Shown here piece after piece: positions 7,036 through 22,036 of a stretch of DNA of 25,134 nt. Below the pieces are notes generated by a model, which searched no databases, was not told the origin of the DNA, and saw only the letters and a program-made list of their open reading frames with translations. Position 1 is the first letter of the stretch. Every line of letters begins with the position of its first letter. The DNA is from a virus: the IMG/VR virus record IMGVR_UViG_3300003409_000275, positions 1 to 25,134 of that record; one strand, given 5' to 3'. A program made the position numbers and the translations under genes.

Positions 7036-7680
7036 ATGAAACTTATTAAAGAAGAAATTACTAACGTAGAATTTCTTACCGAAGAAAAGAATGGTAAGAA
7101 AGACTACTTTATTGAAGGCATCTTCATGCAGTCGGAACTAAAGAACCGTAATGGTCGTAAGTATCCGAAGGCAGTTATGGAGAAAGAAGTCAAGCGTTAT
7201 AATGACGAAATTGTTAGTAAGAAAAGAGCGTTTGGTGAACTAGGACATCCCGATGGTCCTACGATCAATCTTGAGCGTGTATCACACCTTATCACATCAC
7301 TAGAAATGGACGGTAATAACGTCATGGGTCGTGCTAAGATATTAGATACTCCTTATGGTAAGATTGTGAAAAATTTGATGGACGAAGGCGCTACTCTTGG
7401 GGTTTCCTCGCGAGGGATGGGTTCTATTGCATCCAAAGCAGGAGTTCAAGAGGTGCAAGGTGATTTTTATCTTGCAACTGCGGCAGATATCGTTGCTGAT
7501 CCTTCAGCACCAGATGCTTTTGTATCTGGTATCATGGAAGGTAAGGAATGGGTCTGGGATAACGGCATCATCAAAGAAGTCGAGATCGAACAGTACAAAC
7601 AAGAAATTGAGCGTACTAAAAGAAAAGCACTCGCAGAAGCGCAAGCGAGAGTGTTTACAGATTTCTTGAAAAAACTTTAA
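7036..7680 (+). CDS. 21: prohead core protease gp21
   Basis: Serine protease that matures the prohead by cutting scaffold and capsid proteins. I chose the ATG at 7036 (214 aa), one base after the previous stop, because homologs start MKLIKEE-like. An upstream in-frame TTG at 6985 would extend it into the preceding gene. The catalytic region is clear: KNRNGRKYP (36-44), GELGHPDGPTINLERVSH with H71, LGVSSRGMGS with S124/S125, and AADIVADPSAPDA holding candidate aspartates D151/D155. This fits the His-Ser-Asp arrangement of the T4-type prohead protease family (herpesvirus assemblin fold). T4 gp21 is 212 aa. The C-terminal 30 residues are charged and helical. Confidence 0.95.
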   Translation: MKLIKEEITNVEFLTEEKNGKKDYFIEGIFMQSELKNRNGRKYPKAVMEKEVKRYNDEIVSKKRAFGELGHPDGPTINLERVSHLITSLEMDGNNVMGRAKILDTPYGKIVKNLMDEGATLGVSSRGMGSIASKAGVQEVQGDFYLATAADIVADPSAPDAFVSGIMEGKEWVWDNGIIKEVEIEQYKQEIERTKRKALAEAQARVFTDFLKKL

Positions 7681-7681
7681 T

Positions 7682-7689
7682 TATAAATA
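7682..7689 (+). promoter_or_regulatory. T4-type late promoter upstream of gp22
   Basis: Perfect TATAAATA starting 2 bases after the gp21 stop and 29 bases before the gp22 ATG. A good ribosome binding site (AAGGAG) follows at about 7705-7710. Confidence 0.85.
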
Positions 7690-7717
7690 ATTAACTAATA
7701 AGGTAAGGAGCATCCTA

Positions 7718-8809
7718 ATGTCTGTAGAACAGAAGATCAAGGAACTTCTAGAGTCAGTTGAAGCGAAGCAAGAAGAAGTTGTTGCTGAAGAAGTTGAAAC
7801 TGCTGAAGAAGTAATTGCAGAAGACGTTTCTGAAGAAGAAGTTGTCGCTGAAGAAGTCGAAGAGATTGAAGAAGCGAAGGCGAAGAAAGACGTTAAAGAA
7901 GAAGAAGACGAAGACGAAGAGTCTGAAGATGATTCTGAAGAAGACGAAGAAGAAATGTCTGAAGCGAAGTCTGTCAAAGAAGAAGAAGATGAAGATGAAG
8001 ACGAAGATGAGTCTGACGATTCTGACGATGACGATGACGATGACGAAGAAGAAATGGAAGAAGGTAAAGGCAAGAAGAAGATGGGATACAAGAAGGAAGA
8101 TATCGATCTTTCTGCAGACGTATCTGCATTAGTCGAAGGTGCTGAACTTTCTGAAGAATTCCAAGAGAAAGCGAAAACTATCTTTGAAGCGGCAGTATTG
8201 ACTCGCATCGAAGAAGCAGTTGCTGATCTTGAAGAAAAGTTTGACGCTAAACTTGCAGAAGAAGTTGAAGTCGCTAAAACTGATCTCGTAGAAAAAGTTG
8301 ACTCATACTTGGGTTACATCGTAGAGCAGTGGGTTGCAGACAACGAACTCGCAGTTGAGCGTGGATTGAAGACTGAAATCGCTGAAGATTTCATCACTTC
8401 ACTCAAGCAAGTATTCGTGGAACATTATATTGACGTTCCTGAAGAAAAATACGATGTTCTTGGTGAACAAGCATCTAAGATTGATTCTCTTGAAGAGAAA
8501 CTCAATGAGCAGATGGAAAAGAACATCGAATTAGTAAAACAGTATGGAGATTTGGTGAAAGAGCAAACAGTTGCCCAGTTTGCTTCTGATCTTGCAGAGA
8601 CTGATGCTGAGAAGTTCAAGTCACTTGCAGAAAATATTCAGTTTGAAACACATGATAAGTTTATGGAAGACCTCCAGACTATCAAAGAATCTTACTTCAA
8701 GAAAGTATCTGATTCTGCAGTAGAGGAAGTCGTTTTGGAAGAAAGTGTCCAAACTGAAGCAGTGTCTAGCGTCATGTCACAATATGCGAAAGCATTGGCA
8801 AAACGTTAA
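7718..8809 (+). CDS. 22: major prohead scaffold protein gp22
   Basis: Internal scaffold of the prohead, lying between gp21 and gp23 as in T4. The 363 residues are longer than T4 gp22 (269). The N-terminal third is extremely acidic: residues about 15-120 are mostly Glu/Asp in runs such as EEEDEDEESEDDSEEDEEE and SDDDDDDDEEEMEEG, ending in a short basic patch (GKGKKK). The remaining two thirds are helical, likely coiled coil, with segments such as LSEEFQEKAKTIFEAAVLTR, VEQWVADNELAVERGLKTEI and SKIDSLEEKLNEQMEKN, which are typical of gp22 of marine T4-like phages. The acidic tract is built from repeated GAA/GAC/GAT codons and explains the length excess. The reverse-strand Ser-rich frame over it is a shadow. 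Confidence 0.93.
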   Translation: MSVEQKIKELLESVEAKQEEVVAEEVETAEEVIAEDVSEEEVVAEEVEEIEEAKAKKDVKEEEDEDEESEDDSEEDEEEMSEAKSVKEEEDEDEDEDESDDSDDDDDDDEEEMEEGKGKKKMGYKKEDIDLSADVSALVEGAELSEEFQEKAKTIFEAAVLTRIEEAVADLEEKFDAKLAEEVEVAKTDLVEKVDSYLGYIVEQWVADNELAVERGLKTEIAEDFITSLKQVFVEHYIDVPEEKYDVLGEQASKIDSLEEKLNEQMEKNIELVKQYGDLVKEQTVAQFASDLAETDAEKFKSLAENIQFETHDKFMEDLQTIKESYFKKVSDSAVEEVVLEESVQTEAVSSVMSQYAKALAKR

Positions 8810-10113: not shown

Positions 10114-10137
10114 GTTTTACTCTAAGTAAGACGAAGA

Positions 10138-10161
10138 GGGGTGCGAAAGCACCCCTTTTTT
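10138..10161 (+). terminator. intrinsic terminator after gp23
   Basis: A 7-bp perfect stem GGGGTGC (10138-10144) and GCACCCC (10149-10155) with a GAAA tetraloop is followed by six T (10156-10161). This is a textbook Rho-independent terminator, 24 bases after the gp23 stop. Confidence 0.95.
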
Positions 10162-13401: not shown

Positions 13402-13589
13402 ATATAGATGTATCTTCAACCGAGGACATCGCGAATACTACACCTCTGTCAACCCTTTGTCAACAACTTTCTTTCATTTACAACACATTATTGCCTTAAT
13501 GGCAGTATTGCCTTCTTTTCACTTGACAACTGTTTAATATTACGCTATTATGGGTAATACAACTACTAGAATATGGGAAAAACTAAACT
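13402..13589. other. 188-bp intergenic control region before gp55
   Basis: The longest gene-free stretch in the window. It holds two TGTCAAC direct repeats (13447-13453, 13458-13464; 11 bases start to start), an inverted copy of TTGTCAA overlapping the -35 box at 13523, and a near-consensus sigma70 promoter. A 53-codon ORF (13379-13537) runs through it, but it resembles nothing I know and covers the promoter, so I do not call it. Confidence 0.6.
13523..13551 (+). promoter_or_regulatory. sigma70-type promoter upstream of gp55
   Basis: Perfect -35 TTGACA (13523-13528), a 17-base spacer and -10 TATTAT (13546-13551; 5 of 6 consensus). Predicted start is near 13558, giving a leader of about 30 bases before the gp55 ATG. 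A host-polymerase promoter is what one expects for the late sigma factor gene, which must be made before late transcription. Confidence 0.85.
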
Positions 13590-14162
13590 ATGGCAAAAGA
13601 CCCAAGACATTATGTCGATAACAAGGAGTTCTTGGAAGCATTCAAACAATACAAGCAAGAGATAGCAGAAGCGCAAGAAAAGGGAGAACAAATCCCTCGT
13701 GTTCCAGACTATATCGGTGAATGTTTCTTAAAGATCGCACAGCACCTTTCTTACAGACCTAACTTTATCAACTACACATATAAGCACGATATGATCTCTG
13801 ATGGTGTAGAGAACTGTTTGATGTACTGTAAGAACTTTGATCCAGAGAAATCTTCTAATCCATTTGCATACTTTACTCAGATCATCTACTATGCATTCCT
13901 GAGACGCATTCAGCGTGAGAAGAAGCAGACAGAATTAAAAATGAGATATGTCAACTCATTACAAATCGATGAGGAGATGTTCATCAATGAGTTCGATGAT
14001 CTTGATCCATCATACAAGAATACCTACGTTGAGTATTTGCGCAGTGGTAATCTAGTTGGTGATACTTTCCTAAAAGAACAAAATCAAGATAAAGAAACTC
14101 AGAAAGAAGAAATTCAACAAGAAGTTATTGGGTTGGAAAACTTTATGGATGATAAAGAATGA
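13590..14162 (+). CDS. 55: late-transcription sigma factor gp55
   Basis: Phage sigma factor that directs host RNA polymerase to TATAAATA promoters. The 190 residues (T4 gp55 is 185) show the characteristic region: LKIAQHLSYRPNFINYTYKH, DMISDGVENCLMYCKNFDPE and FAYFTQIIYYAFLRRIQREK, which correspond to the region 2 core-binding and -10 recognition segment. The C-terminus ends GLENFMDDKE; the hydrophobic-acidic pattern resembles the sliding-clamp-binding tail of T4 gp55, an inference. The perfect late octamers in this window are its likely targets. It overlaps the halogenase start by 4 bp (ATGA). Confidence 0.95.
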   Translation: MAKDPRHYVDNKEFLEAFKQYKQEIAEAQEKGEQIPRVPDYIGECFLKIAQHLSYRPNFINYTYKHDMISDGVENCLMYCKNFDPEKSSNPFAYFTQIIYYAFLRRIQREKKQTELKMRYVNSLQIDEEMFINEFDDLDPSYKNTYVEYLRSGNLVGDTFLKEQNQDKETQKEEIQQEVIGLENFMDDKE

Positions 14163-15622
14163 ATATCGTGATTTTAGGAACAGGAACCGCAGGATTAACA
14201 ACTGCTCTAATACTGAAGTCAATTAATAGTGCTATCAGTGTTGAAGTTATTGGTTCCCCAAATATTGGAATTGTGGGTGTTGGTGAATCTTCAACTGAAC
14301 ATTTCGATAATTTGAGATCGTTACTAGGATTGACACTTACTGACATTATTAAAGGTTGTCATGCAACTTATAAATTTGGGGTTTATTTTGAGGGATGGTC
14401 TGAAAAGGGTGATTATATCCATGCACTAGCAAGCAAACTAAGAGATAGAAACCCAATGTCAGAATCATTAGAAACAAACATCATGCTTGAGGGTTTGATG
14501 TCAACTGAAGCGCACCCACTTGAAATGGTTGATAGAACTACAATTGAACCTAATATTCGGTGTAGTCTATTAGAACAACCATCACAGTTTCATTTTGATA
14601 CGTTTAAACTAAATGAATTTTTAATAAATCTTTGTGAAAAAAGAGGAATTACAATTCATGAAGATGATGTGACTCCAGTTTTTGATTCAGATGGTAATTG
14701 TTCTGGTTTGGTTGGTAAATCTGAAAATGTATATCTTGGAGACTTATATGTTGATGCTTCTGGATTTCAAAGAGCAATTGTTGGTCAGATGCCTGAATAT
14801 AAGTGGGAGAAAGATGAACATCTATTCTTAGATTCTGCAATCGCATTCCAATGCGAGCATCCAGAACAATACAGGTGTTATACCACAGCGAAAAGAATGA
14901 AATGTGGTTGGATGTGGAGAATTCCAACATATACCCGCATGGGTAATGGTTATGCCTATAATAGTAAATTTACCAATGAAGAACAAGCATTGGATGAGAT
15001 CGAAGAATATTTAGGTTTTAGACCAGAAGTTGGTAGAAGATTTAAGTTTGAAGCGGGTAGATTAAACACGTTCTGGGAAAATAATGTTGTTGCAGTAGGA
15101 TTATCATCGCATTTCTATGAACCACTTGAAGCAACTGCTATTGGTGTTGGTATACAACAAGCAGTATTATTGTCTAAACTAATTCACAATAATGATAAGG
15201 TAAATCGTACTTACTATAATGAGATGAATACTAGTATGTTAGATCAAGTCTCATTATATCTACAATGTCATTATGTTAACGTTCCTCCTGATACTGAATT
15301 CTGGAAATATGTTAAGAATAAAGTAGAAAGTTCGCCATCAAAAGAACTTGACAAGTTAGTAAAAATATGTAATAGTAGGTTCCCAACTCAAGAAGATGTT
15401 GGGGGTAATACCAGAATTAATTTATTTGGTAACCTTAATTTTGCGCAAGTTTTGTATGGGTTGGGTGTTTTGAAATCTGAAGTGGTTCGGAGACAATTCA
15501 TTCTGAAGAATGTTAATGAGTTATTTGAGTATTCTCTTTCTCAAGCGAAGGAGAAAGAAACCAGTAATGAAAATAACCCATCACACAAAGAACTTATCAA
15601 CATGATTAATGAGAGTGAATAA
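14159..15622 (+). CDS. flavin-dependent halogenase (tryptophan-halogenase family)
   Basis: A 487-residue member of the FAD-dependent halogenase family, which uses reduced flavin, oxygen and halide to halogenate aromatic substrates. Visible hallmarks are the nucleotide-binding GTGTAG (8-12 region), VGVGESS (40-46), the catalytic lysine K72 in ATYKFGVYFEGW (aligned with K79 of PrnA, with W80 also kept), GWMWRIP at 250-256 (the WxWxIP motif) and YEPLEATAIG with E324 (aligned with PrnA E346). Tryptophan halogenases are about 500-540 aa, so length is near normal. A cyanophage homolog, VirX1 of Syn10, is established as an iodinating halogenase; substrate and halide here are unknown. No flavin reductase is seen nearby. 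Arginine codons are mostly AGA/AGG (about 16 of 20), unlike the gp47 neighbour (2 of 13), suggesting later acquisition. Its starts and stops overlap both neighbours. Confidence 0.93.
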   Translation: MNIVILGTGTAGLTTALILKSINSAISVEVIGSPNIGIVGVGESSTEHFDNLRSLLGLTLTDIIKGCHATYKFGVYFEGWSEKGDYIHALASKLRDRNPMSESLETNIMLEGLMSTEAHPLEMVDRTTIEPNIRCSLLEQPSQFHFDTFKLNEFLINLCEKRGITIHEDDVTPVFDSDGNCSGLVGKSENVYLGDLYVDASGFQRAIVGQMPEYKWEKDEHLFLDSAIAFQCEHPEQYRCYTTAKRMKCGWMWRIPTYTRMGNGYAYNSKFTNEEQALDEIEEYLGFRPEVGRRFKFEAGRLNTFWENNVVAVGLSSHFYEPLEATAIGVGIQQAVLLSKLIHNNDKVNRTYYNEMNTSMLDQVSLYLQCHYVNVPPDTEFWKYVKNKVESSPSKELDKLVKICNSRFPTQEDVGGNTRINLFGNLNFAQVLYGLGVLKSEVVRRQFILKNVNELFEYSLSQAKEKETSNENNPSHKELINMINESE

Positions 15623-16698
15623 TGAAAATTGCACTGATTAATGATACGCACTTTGGTGCGCGTAATGACAGTGAAGCGTTTGATAACTTCTTCTACAAGT
15701 TCTACGATAATGTGTTCTTTCCGACACTTAAAGAGCGTGGAATCAAAACAATGATCCATTTGGGTGACATTACAGATAGACGTAAGTTTATCAACTATCG
15801 CATCTTGGATCGTTTCCGTAGAGAGTTTATGTGGAAACTTGGTGATATGGGTGTAGATACTCATATCATTATTGGTAACCACGACACATACTTCAAAAAT
15901 ACAAACAAGGTGAACTCTATGGATGCCTTGTTTACATCTTATGATGGTCAGAATGAACCGTGGATTTACAGCGAAGCGCAGACGGTTGACTTTGATGGTT
16001 GTAAGATTCTAATGATGCCTTGGATTAATCCAGAGAACCATGACTATGCTATGAAGCAGATTGAAGAGACAGATGCGCAAGTCTGTTTTGGTCATTTGGA
16101 GATTCAAGGTTTCATGATGTATAAAGGACATGTAAACCACGATCACGGTGTAACTGCTGAAACTTTTAATAAGTTTGACCTTGTGTGCAGTGGACACTTT
16201 CATCATAAGTCATCACAAGGAAACATACATTATTTGGGCAACCCATACCAGATCACATGGTCTGATTATGATGATATTCGTGGTTTTCATATTTTCGATA
16301 CTGAGACTCGTGAACTTGAGTTCGTAGCAAACCCATACACCATCTTTGAGAAGATTTTATATGATGATCGCACAGAAGATTATCTAGATTTTGACTACAA
16401 GCAGTATGAAGGTAAGTTTGTAAAACTCGTGGTAGTCAATAAGATCAATCAGCAAGTATTTGATCGTGTGGTAGACAATCTATCGAGTATTGATTTGGAA
16501 GAGTTGAAGATCATTGAAGATTTCTCTGATTTTGATACTGCATATATCGATGATGAGAAGTTGCAGTTGGATGATACCCTATCACTACTAAATACATACA
16601 TTGAAAATATTGAAACTGATGCGGATAAGAATCGCATCTCAGATATGATGAAAACACTTTATGTGGAAGCGTCAAACGCTAATGTGACAGGTGCTTAA
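15622..16698 (+). CDS. 47: recombination endonuclease subunit gp47 (Mre11/SbcD type)
   Basis: Metallophosphoesterase subunit of the gp46/gp47 complex, which resects DNA ends for recombination-dependent replication and host DNA degradation. The 358 residues (T4 gp47 is 339) show the phosphodiesterase motifs in order: DTH (8-10), GDITDRR (48-54), GNHD (85-88), then GHLEIQG and SGHFHH providing later metal ligands. The start overlaps the halogenase stop by one base (TAATG), and its own stop overlaps the gp46 ATG by one base, typical of the coupled pair. Arginine is almost entirely CGT/CGC. Confidence 0.96.
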   Translation: MKIALINDTHFGARNDSEAFDNFFYKFYDNVFFPTLKERGIKTMIHLGDITDRRKFINYRILDRFRREFMWKLGDMGVDTHIIIGNHDTYFKNTNKVNSMDALFTSYDGQNEPWIYSEAQTVDFDGCKILMMPWINPENHDYAMKQIEETDAQVCFGHLEIQGFMMYKGHVNHDHGVTAETFNKFDLVCSGHFHHKSSQGNIHYLGNPYQITWSDYDDIRGFHIFDTETRELEFVANPYTIFEKILYDDRTEDYLDFDYKQYEGKFVKLVVVNKINQQVFDRVVDNLSSIDLEELKIIEDFSDFDTAYIDDEKLQLDDTLSLLNTYIENIETDADKNRISDMMKTLYVEASNANVTGA

Positions 16699-18416
16699 TG
16701 ATTAAGTTTGAAGTTGTTCGATATAAGAATATCCTTTCCACTGGTAATGCATTTACTGAAGTTAGTCTAGATAAACATCCATCTACACTAATCGTTGGTA
16801 CAAACGGTGCAGGAAAATCGACTATGATCGATGCTCTGTGCTTTGCATTATTTGGTAAACCCTACCGTAACATCAACAAACCGCAGTTGATAAACTCAAT
16901 CAACCAAAAAGACATGGTTGTAGAGGTTGAGTTCTCAATCGGTAAGTCGAAGTATAAGGTTGTCAGAGGTATCAAACCAAATAAGTTTGAAATCTGGCAG
17001 AACGGTACGATGCTGAACCAAGACGCATCTGCAAGAGATTATCAATCACTTCTTGAGAAGCAGATTCTCAAGTTGAACTATAAGTCGTTCACACAGATTG
17101 TAGTTCTTGGTTCAGCGTCATTTACTCCTTTCATGCAATTGTCGGCAAAAGATCGAAAAGAGATCATCGAAGACTTGCTTGATATTCAAATTTTCACTGT
17201 AATGAATGATATTCTAAAAGGTGAACAACAGGGTTTGATTCAGAAATCAAATGTGGTAAAATCTGATTTGGATGTGACTAAACAAAAGGTTGCACTCCAA
17301 GAGCAGTACATCAAAAAGATCGAAGAAGCGAGGAAGCAAGGTGTTCAAGATATTCAAGAAAAAATTCAATCCAGTACTACCAAGATCGGAGAGTACAGTA
17401 CCTCTATTGACTCGCTCAGAAAGGGAATTGAAGAAAAAGAACAAACGATTGCCGATCTTGATGCGATAAGCAAGAAGTTATCTAAACTATCTAAACTACA
17501 AACTCAAATTGAAAATAATGTCACTAAATTTCAGAAAGAAATCAAATTCTACAGCGAGACAGAAACCTGTCATACTTGTAAGCAAGACATCGATGATGAC
17601 TTCAAAGGAACAATCATCACCGAAAGAGAAAGTAAACTTTCAGAAAATACCAATGCTCTGCAAGAGTTGGAAGCACAGATCGCAGTAATCAATAGTCGTA
17701 TTGCTGAGATCAATGTGGTGCAAACTGAGATTAGCAATCTACAGCATGAAGTCAGTAAGTACCAAGCGATGATCTCTACAGAGAATGATCACATCGACAA
17801 ACTCAATGTGGAACTTGCAAAGGTGCAGGAAGCGTCTACAGATGATACCTCTGACGATAAAAAAGCACTACGCGAACTTGCAAAACAAGCGATGCAGTTG
17901 ACTGAAGAAAAGTCGAAACTAAACGAAGATAAATACTACTATGAGATTGCCGCTAATCTACTGAAGGATAGTGGTGTTAAAACAAAGATTATTAGTCAGT
18001 ATCTACCTGTCATTAATCATTATGTGAACAGTTTCCTGAAGTCGATGGACTTCTTTGTTCAGTTTGAGTTGGATGAGAACTTTAAAGAAACCATCCGATC
18101 CAGACACCGTGATGCATTTAGTTATGCGTCATTCAGTGAAGGTGAGAAAATGCGTATCGATTTGTCACTACTATTTACTTGGAGACAAATTGCGAAGATG
18201 AAGAATTCAACAAACACAAATCTATTAATCATGGATGAGGTGTTTGATAGTTCACTAGACAATACAGGAACAGATGAATTCTTGAAGATTCTAAACACTC
18301 TAGATAAGGGTGCTAACGCATTCATCATTTCACATAAAGGTGATACTTTGTTTGACAAATTTACTAACATCATTCGATTTGAGAAGCATCAAAATTACTC
18401 ACGAATGGTAAGTTGA
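16698..18416 (+). CDS. 46: recombination endonuclease subunit gp46 (Rad50/SbcC type)
   Basis: SMC-like ATPase partner of gp47. The 572 residues (T4 gp46 is 560) carry Walker A GTNGAGKST (34-42), two long coiled-coil arms (about 180-285 and 310-420) separated by a zinc hook CHTC (C291, C294), the ABC signature FSEGEK (479-484) and Walker B LLIMDE ending at E514. The C-terminal switch histidine is plausibly in FIISHKGD. All elements needed for an active Rad50-like ATPase are present. The next gene follows in the same frame after a single TGA. Confidence 0.96.
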   Translation: MIKFEVVRYKNILSTGNAFTEVSLDKHPSTLIVGTNGAGKSTMIDALCFALFGKPYRNINKPQLINSINQKDMVVEVEFSIGKSKYKVVRGIKPNKFEIWQNGTMLNQDASARDYQSLLEKQILKLNYKSFTQIVVLGSASFTPFMQLSAKDRKEIIEDLLDIQIFTVMNDILKGEQQGLIQKSNVVKSDLDVTKQKVALQEQYIKKIEEARKQGVQDIQEKIQSSTTKIGEYSTSIDSLRKGIEEKEQTIADLDAISKKLSKLSKLQTQIENNVTKFQKEIKFYSETETCHTCKQDIDDDFKGTIITERESKLSENTNALQELEAQIAVINSRIAEINVVQTEISNLQHEVSKYQAMISTENDHIDKLNVELAKVQEASTDDTSDDKKALRELAKQAMQLTEEKSKLNEDKYYYEIAANLLKDSGVKTKIISQYLPVINHYVNSFLKSMDFFVQFELDENFKETIRSRHRDAFSYASFSEGEKMRIDLSLLFTWRQIAKMKNSTNTNLLIMDEVFDSSLDNTGTDEFLKILNTLDKGANAFIISHKGDTLFDKFTNIIRFEKHQNYSRMVS

Positions 18417-18437
18417 AAATTGAAAGAAGATGTAAAC

Positions 18438-19577
18438 GTGAAGAAACCTTGGCAAAAGGGGTATGAGTTAGAGTTCCTCAAAGGTATTGAAAAACTCTAT
18501 GAAGATTGGAACAGTTACACACTAGGACCTTTCGCTCAGTATAAAAAGAATAATATAGCAGAAGACATGCACAATCTATCCTTAATGTTTCAGACTGATA
18601 AGGATGGTTCTTTTAAGATGATGTGCAGTCGAAAAGAAGTTCGTAGTAATGGATTCATCAAGAATGGTGATCTTCCATTGATGATGAAAGTGAAAGGTGA
18701 TTATGTATTTTCCCACTTTACTTCCCCAGAAGCAGTATCTCTCACGCAACAGTATCGTGATAAGAACTGTCATGCGCTTTGTTTCTCAGAAGATAAAGCG
18801 ATGCGTAACGCACTTGATCAAGAGGGATTCCGCTTCATAGGTGGTAAGGTAACCTCATTCGGAGAAATCTACTCAATCTATTTCCGTGATGCTAGTAATT
18901 CACTAGAAAGGCGCGATGGGTGTGGATATCTGTTCCATGAAACTCTTGCCTTAGAAAAGTGCAAATATGAGTTTGACATTGACAGTCAGATGATCTATAA
19001 TGAGATGTTAAGTATTTGGAATGAGTGGGAAGACCACTACTCCAATTACAACAAGAAACATACTTGGTCTGCATTCGCTGTTCGTGGATATTCGGAAGAC
19101 CCACTTTATATTGCTAAACCATCTGAGTTGAGTAAGAAGTGGAAAGAAGAGAATCCACAATGGGAAAATATGGTCATCACAGACACACCAATTAGGTCAC
19201 AATTTGTATACCTAAATGAACTGCTCAAGAATTTTGAGGAGTTGGGTGAGTTGCATCGAGTTCGTTTCATGAAACTATCACCTAATGGTGGTGAGTTGGA
19301 ACGACACACTGACCTTGTAGATAAAGATTCTGGTGTAGATGATGGGAAAATAATTCGCCTACATATACCAGTAAAGACAAATCCAAAAGTAGAATTTACT
19401 GCTTGGAATTGGGATGGTGAACCGAAAACGGTTCATATGAAAGAGAATGAACTTTGGTATCTGGATACCCGCAAACCACACCGCGCAATTAATGGTGGTG
19501 ATGAGGAACGTATCCACTTAGTAATTGATTTGGAAGCGAATGTACACAGCAGAAGATTACTTGGAATTGGTGAGTGA
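18438..19577 (+). CDS. two-part protein with C-terminal AspH-like 2OG oxygenase domain
   Basis: About 379 residues from the GTG at 18438, which has an AAGAAGA stretch 7 bases upstream. An in-frame TTG at 18420 would add 6 residues, and no ATG start is available near the front. Numbering from the TTG, the C-terminal part (about 250-375) has the aspartyl/asparaginyl beta-hydroxylase pattern: H296-T-D298 in ELERHTD, RLHIPVKTNP (R313), then WYLDTRKPHRAING with H354 and ERIHLVIDL with R364 (likely 2OG-binding). The N-terminal part (about 8-160) is not clearly recognised; the segment ALDQEGFRFIGGK (131-143) is reminiscent of GNAT acetyltransferases, a weak resemblance. Substrate is unknown. It lies directly downstream of gp46 and overlaps the PLP-enzyme start by 38 bp. 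Confidence 0.8.
   Translation: MKKPWQKGYELEFLKGIEKLYEDWNSYTLGPFAQYKKNNIAEDMHNLSLMFQTDKDGSFKMMCSRKEVRSNGFIKNGDLPLMMKVKGDYVFSHFTSPEAVSLTQQYRDKNCHALCFSEDKAMRNALDQEGFRFIGGKVTSFGEIYSIYFRDASNSLERRDGCGYLFHETLALEKCKYEFDIDSQMIYNEMLSIWNEWEDHYSNYNKKHTWSAFAVRGYSEDPLYIAKPSELSKKWKEENPQWENMVITDTPIRSQFVYLNELLKNFEELGELHRVRFMKLSPNGGELERHTDLVDKDSGVDDGKIIRLHIPVKTNPKVEFTAWNWDGEPKTVHMKENELWYLDTRKPHRAINGGDEERIHLVIDLEANVHSRRLLGIGE
18973..19001 (+). promoter_or_regulatory. perfect-consensus sigma70 promoter sequence inside the AspH-like gene
   Basis: TTGACA (18973-18978), exactly 17 bases, then TATAAT (18996-19001). This is the full Escherichia coli sigma70 consensus with ideal spacing, within codons for residues about 185-195. 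It could drive the downstream PLP enzyme and oxygenase genes, or an internally initiated C-terminal domain. Confidence 0.6.
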
Positions 19578-20307
19578 TTGGGAAGACCCTAATCCTGCAC
19601 CTGTCGTAGAACTTATTGAAGGGGTTCATGTTGTTCGTGACGATCTTCTTCCTGCAGGTTCTAAACAACGATTCATCGATAAACTAATCCGCGACACCGA
19701 CTGCGAAGAGTGGGTGTTTGGTGGATCAAACAAGGTTGGGTGGGGTCCTATCTCACTCGCCTACGTCTGTCAGAGATATGGTAAGAAATCTACCTGTTTC
19801 TGGGCAGAGCGTAAAGAACCCACTTGGCATCAACAAAAGTACATGGAGTATGGTGGTGCTATTGAATGGGTAAAAATGGGTATGCTTTCTGTAACCCTTT
19901 CTCGTGCAGAGAAGTATCGTAGAGAGAGTCCTAGTACACGCACAACCCTTCCCCTCGGACTTGAACATGACACTGTACTTGGTTCTATCATCAAGGTAGC
20001 AAGAAACTTACCAGTTGTTCCTGACGTAATATGGACAGTAGGATCATCTGGTACTTTGTCGAGAGGGTTACAGTTAGCATTTCCCGATGCAGAAGTACAC
20101 GTTGTACAAACTGGTCACAAGATGGATGAACGTCAACTTGGTCGTGCAATCCTTCATGAAGCGCCATACAAGTACGACAAACCAGTAAAAGTAAAAGATG
20201 CACCTCCATTCCCATCTGCACCAGAATATGATGCGAAGGGGTGGAAACCAATGCTTGAAAATATGGATAGAAGTAAAGTTAACTTATTTTGGAATGTTGC
20301 GGCATGA
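19540..20307 (+). CDS. PLP-dependent fold-type-II enzyme (D-cysteine desulfhydrase/ACC deaminase-like)
   Basis: A 255-residue protein resembling the tryptophan-synthase-beta fold of PLP enzymes. From the ATG at 19540, the segment VVRDDLLPAGSKQRFIDKLI (31-50) matches the 'RDDL..GGNK..KLE' block of ACC deaminase/D-cysteine desulfhydrase, placing K42 as the Schiff-base lysine. EWVFGGSNKVGWGPISLA follows like the QSNH substrate-binding block, and GSSGT (168-172) resembles the PLP phosphate-binding loop. It is shorter than usual (about 320-340 aa) and ends soon after this loop, so the C-terminal part is reduced. An in-frame TTG at 19525 is less likely than the ATG, which has GGAAG upstream. Reaction and substrate are unknown. 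It overlaps its upstream neighbour by 38 bp and the next start by 4. Confidence 0.72.
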   Translation: MYTAEDYLELVSDWEDPNPAPVVELIEGVHVVRDDLLPAGSKQRFIDKLIRDTDCEEWVFGGSNKVGWGPISLAYVCQRYGKKSTCFWAERKEPTWHQQKYMEYGGAIEWVKMGMLSVTLSRAEKYRRESPSTRTTLPLGLEHDTVLGSIIKVARNLPVVPDVIWTVGSSGTLSRGLQLAFPDAEVHVVQTGHKMDERQLGRAILHEAPYKYDKPVKVKDAPPFPSAPEYDAKGWKPMLENMDRSKVNLFWNVAA

Positions 20308-20927
20308 GTCTAACTCTACCTCTAGTCAATGTCAAAAAAATTCATTTCGGAGATTTAGTTCAGGAAAGAATTCATCATGTTTTTTCTGGTGAATATTCAT
20401 ATCACTTTTTAAACAAATACTCACCTCAAGAATATGATGTTGATGGAACTATACTTAAAGATGAACTTGAACTCGCTTCATGGTCTGGAGATACTAAAAG
20501 AGATGGAACTAGACTGTGGAATGATGAATTAACTAGATTAATCTGGATTTCATGTTGTGAAGAATTTGGAATTAATCCATTTTCATTTGTTGAGCGTTGT
20601 TATTTAAATGCACAAACTAAAGGTCAAGTATCTTACTGGCATCCAGATTCTGGATTTGAAAATACTCCAAAATTTACAATATTATATTATCCATCTATTA
20701 ATAATAGACAGGAACATAGAGGAACTGAGTTTTTAGTTGATGGTAAAGTTGAATATATTCCTTATCATACTGGTTCTGCGGTAATGTTTAGAACTGATTT
20801 ATGGCATAGAGGTTTAGATACCGACAGCACACTAAGTCCAAGGAATACATTAGTATTTCACACTATAGATTTGACTAAAACTGGAAGAAAACTATTTGAG
20901 GGAACATTAGGATACAATTATGATTGA
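20304..20927 (+). CDS. 2OG-Fe(II) oxygenase
   Basis: I use the ATG at 20304 (207 aa), which overlaps the previous stop as ATGA; an in-frame TTG at 20289 lies in the preceding gene. The double-stranded beta-helix signature is present: H113-P-D115 in SYWHPDSG, GTEFLVDGKVEYIP strands, H168 in DLWHRG, and R180 in SPRNTLVF as the 2OG-binding arginine. This resembles prolyl-4-hydroxylase-type phage oxygenases, which are abundant in marine T4-like phages with mostly unknown substrates. Arginine codons are almost all AGA/AGG (10 of 11), unlike the PLP gene upstream, suggesting a separate origin. Confidence 0.85.
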   Translation: MSLTLPLVNVKKIHFGDLVQERIHHVFSGEYSYHFLNKYSPQEYDVDGTILKDELELASWSGDTKRDGTRLWNDELTRLIWISCCEEFGINPFSFVERCYLNAQTKGQVSYWHPDSGFENTPKFTILYYPSINNRQEHRGTEFLVDGKVEYIPYHTGSAVMFRTDLWHRGLDTDSTLSPRNTLVFHTIDLTKTGRKLFEGTLGYNYD

Positions 20928-21396
20928 ACAAACTGATTTAAAATTTCCATTTACACTAAATCAATGGTGTAAAGTAAAGTACAAAACATATGCATTTTTT
21001 CAACCCAATCTGGGGTCTATGTATGCTACAGAAATGCAAACTAGATTATACCAAAAGTCATATCCACTAAATAAATGTCCTATTACTAGGGGGTTATTTA
21101 GAATCGCTTTCAAAAGTTTTGAAGAAAAGAAAGGTATTCTTAATCTCGATGAATTTTTGTTAGTGTCTCATAATGCACTAGTTCCAGAAAGAATTGAATT
21201 TAAGCGAGTATCAACCCGATATATTATATGTTTATCTGAGTGCGATTCTGAAATTGCATTTGATACTCAAGTAGAAAAGTGTGGATATTTGAGAGTTTTT
21301 AAAGTTCCTGCGGGAGTAAACATTCTATTAAGAGAACACTCAGATATTCAAGATACTGGAGTATATTTAATAGGAGCGGCAAGTGACTATTCGTAA
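20920..21396 (+). CDS. unrecognised protein between two 2OG oxygenases
   Basis: A 158-residue protein I do not recognise. It begins MIEQTDLKFPFTLNQWCK and seems beta-rich in its second half (RVSTRYIICLSECDSEIAFD, then YLRVFKVPAGVNILLREH). No catalytic motif, signal peptide or membrane segment is evident; the cysteines (C17, C53, C104, C108, C120) are not paired like a zinc site. It overlaps the upstream oxygenase by 8 bp and the downstream one by 14 bp, which argues for tight co-expression. The AT-rich, AGA-biased codon use matches the upstream oxygenase, so the two may have arrived together. Confidence 0.75.
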   Translation: MIEQTDLKFPFTLNQWCKVKYKTYAFFQPNLGSMYATEMQTRLYQKSYPLNKCPITRGLFRIAFKSFEEKKGILNLDEFLLVSHNALVPERIEFKRVSTRYIICLSECDSEIAFDTQVEKCGYLRVFKVPAGVNILLREHSDIQDTGVYLIGAASDYS

Positions 21397-22036
21397 AAAA
21401 GAAACTCCAATTATTGATACTGATGAGATTTTTCCTATGATTGACATAAACACAAAGACAGACCGCGCTTATGTGCAAATTATCGACAACTCTTTCCCAT
21501 CAGAAGTTGTAGAAGAAATTGATGAATATATTAAATCACATTACATGTTCCAGTATGGACATAGTGGTAAAGGTAAGCAGAGTGGTGACGCTTTATTTTA
21601 TGTTGCTGATATGTACCAAATAAATGGAATCAATTACAAAATCCAAGAAGACCCCATTGTATCATTTATTCGCGAGAGTGGATTTGCTATGTTCGGTATC
21701 AGAGTTAAAGAATATGAAAGGGAATATGTAAATCTTCAGACATATAAGCATGATGGTGGATGGCACACTGATATTGGAAATCTAGGAGATAATGAATTTG
21801 GTGATCATAGTCCTGATTTGTACACTATGCTTTACATGCCTAACTATAATGTAAATGGTACTAGTGGACAATTTGAATTGCGGTTACCTGATGGTGAAGA
21901 GATTAAAGTTGATTATGTTCCAGGCAGACTCTTGTTGTTTAGATCAGAACTATGGCATCGTGGAATGTCTTCAACCCAATTGGGTGCGGTTAGAACAACA
22001 TTAGCATTTAAATGTGTGAGGATACATCTTGACTAA
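21383..22036 (+). CDS. 2OG-Fe(II) oxygenase with GTG start
   Basis: A 217-residue protein starting at GTG 21383, supported by a strong ribosome binding site AGGAG (21372-21376) with 6-base spacing. Oxygenase hallmarks: H128-T-D130 in GGWHTDIGN, a GQFELRLPDGEEIKVDYVP beta segment, H192 in ELWHRG, and R204 in AVRTTLAF. The ELWHRGM element is close to the DLWHRGL element of the oxygenase at 20304, so the two may be diverged relatives. Their N-terminal halves share little by eye. The substrate is unknown. The stop overlaps the next start by 8 bp. Confidence 0.87.
   Translation: MTIRKKETPIIDTDEIFPMIDINTKTDRAYVQIIDNSFPSEVVEEIDEYIKSHYMFQYGHSGKGKQSGDALFYVADMYQINGINYKIQEDPIVSFIRESGFAMFGIRVKEYEREYVNLQTYKHDGGWHTDIGNLGDNEFGDHSPDLYTMLYMPNYNVNGTSGQFELRLPDGEEIKVDYVPGRLLLFRSELWHRGMSSTQLGAVRTTLAFKCVRIHLD

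Follow-up and report, generated by a model that had tools for sequence, protein, structure and literature searches.

The window analysed here is the entire IMG/VR record IMGVR_UViG_3300003409_000275 (25,134 bases), and records in that collection may be fragments. Its co-directional genes are those of a marine myovirus of the T4-like kind. Terminase, sheath, tube, portal, protease, scaffold and capsid genes were recognised, some of them named from their position and by comparison with phages Melnitz and HTVC008M. The structural block is followed on its 3′ side by uvsY, uvsW, gp55, a halogenase gene, gp47 and gp46, and then by metabolic genes (Table 1). For the capsid protein, identity is highest with Methylophilales phage Melnitz (72%), followed by Pelagibacter phage HTVC008M (67%) and cyanophages (65%); gp46 has 50.5% identity with its Melnitz counterpart. 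Because the capsid is closer to Melnitz and HTVC008M than to the cyanophages, the host may be a heterotroph and the phage is not necessarily a cyanophage.

Table 1. Annotated features from the gp55 promoter to the second 2OG-Fe(II) oxygenase-like gene (feature, position, strand, basis)
sigma70-like promoter, TTGACA-17-TATTAT, 11/12	13523..13551	+	consensus match only
gp55, T4-type late sigma factor	13590..14162	+	phrog_234, 206.8 bits
flavin-dependent halogenase (FDH), 487 aa	14159..15622	+	PF04820, phrog_2928
gp47, SbcD-like recombination nuclease subunit	15622..16698	+	phrog_100, 374.9 bits
gp46, SbcC-like subunit	16698..18416	+	phrog_77, 591.2 bits
Asp/Asn beta-hydroxylase-like oxygenase, 3′ of gp46	18420..19577	+	PF05118, 45.4 bits
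PALP/threonine dehydratase-like ORF	19525..20307		phrog_7093, 121 bits
2OG-Fe(II) oxygenase-like gene	20289..20927	+	phrog_274, home-made 2OG HMM set
second 2OG-Fe(II) oxygenase-like gene	21383..22036	+	phrog_274, phrog_81 '2OG-Fe(II) oxygenase', 2OG HMM set

The first of the two 2OG-like genes had no match in the Pfam scan, and the second reached only E 0.22 against PF13759. Their family phrog_274 is labelled 'DNA endonuclease V', probably wrongly, as the family seems to consist of 2OG-Fe(II) oxygenases; its members in the window and in phage S-H38 (L084:4320-4952, 7362-7853) match the home-made 2OG HMMs with E down to 5e-15. The PALP-like ORF adjoins the hydroxylase-like and 2OG genes, and a small amino-acid modification cluster is possible there.

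We confirmed that the gene between gp55 and gp47 is a real, full-length phage gene of the FDH family. Its reading frame is open over 487 codons and matches the PF04820 Trp_halogenase profile with 281.7 bits (E 1.4e-83; residues 2-440 against profile positions 1-447 of 458), the curated cut-off being 21 bits, and phrog_2928, 'tryptophan halogenase', with 312.6 bits. Direct reading of the junctions showed the gp55 stop TGA overlapping the halogenase ATG as ATGA (14159-14162) and the halogenase stop TAA sharing base 15622 with the gp47 ATG as TAATG, as the initial annotation had stated in giving the gene start and stop bases in common with both neighbours. Its description of these neighbours as two core replication genes was right for the gp47/gp46 flank but not for gp55, which is a late sigma factor.

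Three signature motifs, GxGxxG, WxWxIP and Fx.Px.Sx.G, are described for FDHs (PMC7336383, PMC12645471). By direct count the FAD motif GxGxxG is present as GTGTAG from residue 7 and GWxWxIP as GWMWRIP from residue 250, and both align with RebH and PyrH. The catalytic lysine and glutamate of PrnA (K79 and E346) correspond to K72 and E324, which align with the same two enzymes; in PrnA, K79A abolishes the reaction and E346Q makes it two orders of magnitude slower (PMC5727139). Across 51 viral homologues, tandem paralogues included, K72, E324 and W251 do not vary. The PF04820 match and the RebH/PyrH alignment thus bear out the identification of an FDH with FAD motif, K72, E324 and WxWxIP. An AlphaFold2 model built from 51 window and viral sequences (pLDDT 92.5, pTM 0.92) has the FDH fold, and its best 50 PDB fold matches are all FDH-family proteins, among them Xcc4156 (TM 0.85) and PyrH (TM 0.84). 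Structure prediction, one of the checks proposed at the outset, did not refute the family assignment.

The same was true of the phylogeny. In a 44-row tree, the window halogenase groups with P-SSM2 and S-H38 in a clade (support 100/99) made up of 35 rows from viruses and one from a metagenome-assembled bacterial contig. The bacterial contig, a gammaproteobacterial MAG contig (L165) with its halogenase inside the viral clade, may really be viral and have been placed in a bacterial bin. The suggestion that halogenases are rare outside secondary metabolism did not hold for phages: the gene has matches in 70 records of the annotated phage collection, and cyanophage prnA is an old finding, discussed in PMC2984593 and PMC3037559 and counted in 20 of 153 cyanophage genomes in PMC10452541. 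Six contigs (L010, L023, L032, L044, L069 and L070) carry three to four halogenase-family genes in or near tandem. The window gene is a further phage member of the FDH family, in a clade separate from that of the cyanophage enzyme VirX1.

To place the gene in its setting we compared loci fetched by two gp47 searches, a sample chosen by gp47 similarity and not a census. Of 98 non-identical loci in which both genes occur, 84 have gp47 next to gp55 with nothing between. The slot holds an AAA ATPase in nine loci, a 2OG-Fe(II) oxygenase (PF13640) in two, a halogenase in one (L134), and a Dam-type adenine methylase and an endonuclease VII-type protein in one each (L256:3495-4004, L260:3410-3973). 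The ATPases are about 340 aa long (contigs L148-L157 and L160), and the endonuclease VII-type occupant could serve as a means of insertion. The gp55-gp47 junction is thus a cargo slot, a new observation, with a second halogenase there. The gp47 gene of L134 is 94% identical in DNA to that of L137, the nearest empty-site contig, and the L134 halogenase comes after TATATT, which is also found after gp55 in L137; these two facts make the halogenase a fairly recent gain or loss at this site. The L134 and window halogenases have 33% identity and stand apart in the tree, a single clade not being rejected (AU test, p = 0.22), so that one shared insertion and two separate ones would both fit. When more relatives of the L134 gene were sought, only the gene itself was returned. 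Since this independent contig also has a halogenase at the gp55-gp47 junction, mis-assembly at the junction in the window is unlikely.

The sigma70-like promoter lies 38 bases 5′ of gp55 and is predicted to serve a gp55-halogenase-gp47-gp46 operon. Five T4-type late promoter cores, TATAAATA, occur in the window (1918, 6654, 7682, 8813 and 10166), against a chance expectation of 1.5. All are on the + strand within the structural block, at positions below 10,200, and four lie fewer than 75 bases 5′ of genes of that block; the window scan placed none near the halogenase or in its operon. A strong terminator-like hairpin follows gp23 on its 3′ side (10133-10160). Another sigma70-like promoter, a perfect 12/12 match (TTGACA-17-TATAAT), stands at 18973 inside the Asp/Asn hydroxylase-like ORF. 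With a sigma70-like promoter 5′ of gp55 and late promoters absent from the operon, these consensus matches suggest early or middle expression of the halogenase together with gp55 and gp47/46, and the position of the gene in the operon supports the co-expression that the initial annotation had proposed.

A reduced flavin supply was sought in two flavin reductase families, PF01613 and PF03358. Ten phage records with halogenases, four from isolate phages, contained neither family; PF03358 had no match in the window and PF01613 none among those window proteins that went through the Pfam scan, whereas search controls matched in 13 of 14 genomes. The earlier remark that no flavin reductase is visible therefore stands, and we rejected a phage-encoded enzyme within those two families. 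That FADH2 comes from the host is the simplest assumption.

We also examined the genes around phage halogenases in 40 non-redundant loci using home-made HMMs, with control genes drawn from those same loci. 2OG oxygenases made up 55 of 152 genes within two of a halogenase, compared to 26 of 341 genes at least five away. Pfam scans of samples agreed, both for PF13640 (30/144 near genes vs 6/132 far genes) and for PF13759 (17 near vs 6 far). When only halogenases less than 50% identical were kept (20 loci), the counts were 31/72 near and 19/163 far (Wilcoxon p = 0.0009); below 42% identity, the six loci left gave p = 0.125, too few for the test to have power. Marine phages are described as rich in 2OG oxygenases in general in passages of PMC3037559 and PMC9964418, and these passages draw no link to halogenases. 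2OG oxygenases are thus enriched beside phage halogenases, which is a new observation.

Taken together, these results make it reasonably probable that the gene encodes an FAD-dependent two-component halogenase of a phage-specific PF04820 clade, carried as cargo in the gp55-gp47-gp46 operon. Host enzymes would provide FADH2, with which the phage enzyme and O2 would form C4a-hydroperoxy-FAD; this would oxidise halide to HOX, and HOX would travel through an internal tunnel to K72 and E324, where an electron-rich aromatic would be halogenated. Its probable substrates are an indole, a phenol or, in an open pocket, a residue of a larger molecule, and expression would probably fall early or in mid-infection, along with gp55 and gp47/46. 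The grouping of phage halogenases with 2OG-Fe(II) oxygenases, often beside such genes, would fit an O2-dependent tailoring function. Besides the changed halide strap described below, three points weigh against this reading: the branch of the halogenase in the tree is long (1.97 changes per column), the 2OG genes of the window are at least four genes from it and not adjacent, and the supply of reduced flavin by the host is an assumption.

The main alternative concerns the third signature motif. F319 and P322 are kept, but at the aligned positions the serine is replaced by A325 and the glycine by A327, so that the halide strap reads E324-A325-T326-A327 (E-A-T-A) instead of E-S-T-G; the claim of intact catalytic residues is correct for K72 and E324 and fails for these two. 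The conserved serine is Ser359 of Thal, whose Lys79, Glu358 and Ser359 occupy the same position in PyrH and PrnA (PMC7948982). Because the strap is changed, the protein could be a flavin-dependent oxygenase on the FDH scaffold that kept Lys and Glu and lost halogenation, hydroxylating its substrate or working without halide. A viral alignment of 43 sequences shows A325 in every row, and a wider one in almost all. Alanine also occupies the serine position in SfH (2pyx, EASA) and in 84 of 99 bacterial homologues whose function is unreported, a count that is biased because the scan pattern itself required EPLEA. Our literature search found no reported activity for any enzyme with an E-A-T-A or EASA strap and no assayed precedent for alanine at the serine position, and the window protein weakly resembles the QhpG and LodB families. 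Against a non-halogenating enzyme, halide is bound by backbone NH and the glycine varies among described halogenases, being Ser in BrvH and two Xanthomonas enzymes and Asn in Xcc4156 (PMC7336383), so that its loss is compatible with halogenation. K72 and E324, which have roles in halogen transfer, are invariant, and GWxWxIP, proposed to block monooxygenation (PMC8407142), is intact. The broken strap motif therefore lowered our confidence in halogenation and not in homology, the glycine being absent from BrvH and Xcc4156 as well. It is because of the strap, and of the missing tryptophan motif described below, that we regard halogenation as no better than reasonably probable and the non-halogenating oxygenase as rather unlikely.

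The initial annotation had taken VirX1 (cyanophage Syn10 CPUG_00131, PDB 6qgm) as the known and relevant precedent, a choice undone by the many phage prnA genes and by the position of VirX1 outside the window clade. That the window enzyme is a broad-range iodinase or brominase like VirX1 is accordingly improbable. According to papers that cite its primary description, VirX1 is also a phage FDH of the PF04820 family with the catalytic lysine and without a tryptophan lid, and it is described in PMC7948982 as resembling Thal at the FAD site. However, VirX1 (L086:5424-7013) groups with classical FDHs, outside the supported clade of the window gene, by which orthology was rejected; its structure is only 20th among 30 PDB sequence matches, and its strap is E-S-T-G, not E-A-T-A. 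The gene for VirX1, which the Syn10 record labels 'hypothetical protein', is the second of an adjacent pair of PF04820 genes (L086:3911-7016).

Still less probable is a free-tryptophan halogenase as in pyrrolnitrin synthesis, whose antibiotic product would shield the infected host, a published speculation on cyanophage prnA. The family name and the suggestion in PMC2984593 and PMC9964418 favour this reading. The Trp4 motif, YYxxF(E/D)..EF(R/K)NFW or (Y/H)YHG(L/F)(P/E)PYS, which marks tryptophan halogenases of groups A and B (PMC8269204), is absent from the window halogenase, where the aligned stretch is GGNTRINLFGNLNF; the Trp2 region is HALAS and not H(L/P/S)F, and no pyrrolnitrin-type partner gene occurs among the scanned window proteins. 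Assayed halogenases lacking Trp4 acted on indole and not on tryptophan (PMC8269204). With this tryptophan-lid motif missing, free tryptophan is an unlikely substrate, and we rejected it on the negative motif test. The labels 'prnA' and 'tryptophan halogenase' in phage genomes are then family names only, and the published guess of antibiotic protection through chlorotryptophan is a poor fit for the window gene.

A decaying or accidental insertion without a role, or an assembly chimera, is scarcely credible: the long branch and the empty junction of most relatives would allow it, but the gene is full-length with tight ATGA and TAATG junctions, a second, divergent halogenase occupies the slot in L134, and decay was rejected since departures from the clade-conserved columns number only two.

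The 2OG enrichment, the shared slot and a clade with an unusual strap offer a testable alternative to the published guess on why so many ocean phages have halogenases, namely early O2-dependent tailoring of a larger substrate. In its widest form, which we put forward tentatively and think unlikely at present, phage halogenases and 2OG-Fe(II) oxygenases would be one O2-dependent modification system of marine phages, alternating or cooperating in shared slots (here gp55-gp47), whose target early in infection would be a phage or host macromolecule, such as a protein or a nucleic acid, and not a secondary metabolite.

Compared to known systems, the window halogenase is nearest in kind to the prnA products of P-SSM2 (PSSM2_217, T4-GC 212) and S-H38, none of which we found characterised in the literature. 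They have the PF04820 domain, the supported virus clade and the conserved Lys and Glu in common with it, and their strap, E-A-T-S, is close to its own; they differ in having 32-36% identity with the window protein and in lying elsewhere in the genome, not between gp55 and gp47. Like PyrH, RebH and PrnA it has the FDH fold, GxGxxG, the lysine, GWxWxIP and the glutamate, but it lacks Trp4, has altered Trp1 and Trp2 and a strap without Ser and Gly, and is shorter (487 aa vs 511-538). The Group C FDHs (BrvH, Xcc4156 and MibH) also lack the Trp4 lid; BrvH and the Xcc enzymes have, as here, a residue other than Gly at the second halide position, and Xcc4156 is the best fold match of the model by TM-score at 25% identity. 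The change of the strap serine to alanine sets the window protein apart from this group, for which the literature found reports none. In Melnitz, gp55 and gp47 overlap with nothing between them. HTVC008M PrnA (AGE60413.1) is likewise a PF04820 gene set between core genes, again in a T4-like marine phage, and adjoins a 2OG-type dioxygenase, but there dioxygenase and halogenase are inserted between the terminase subunits, and the HTVC008M protein, with 30.9% identity to the window halogenase, falls outside its clade.
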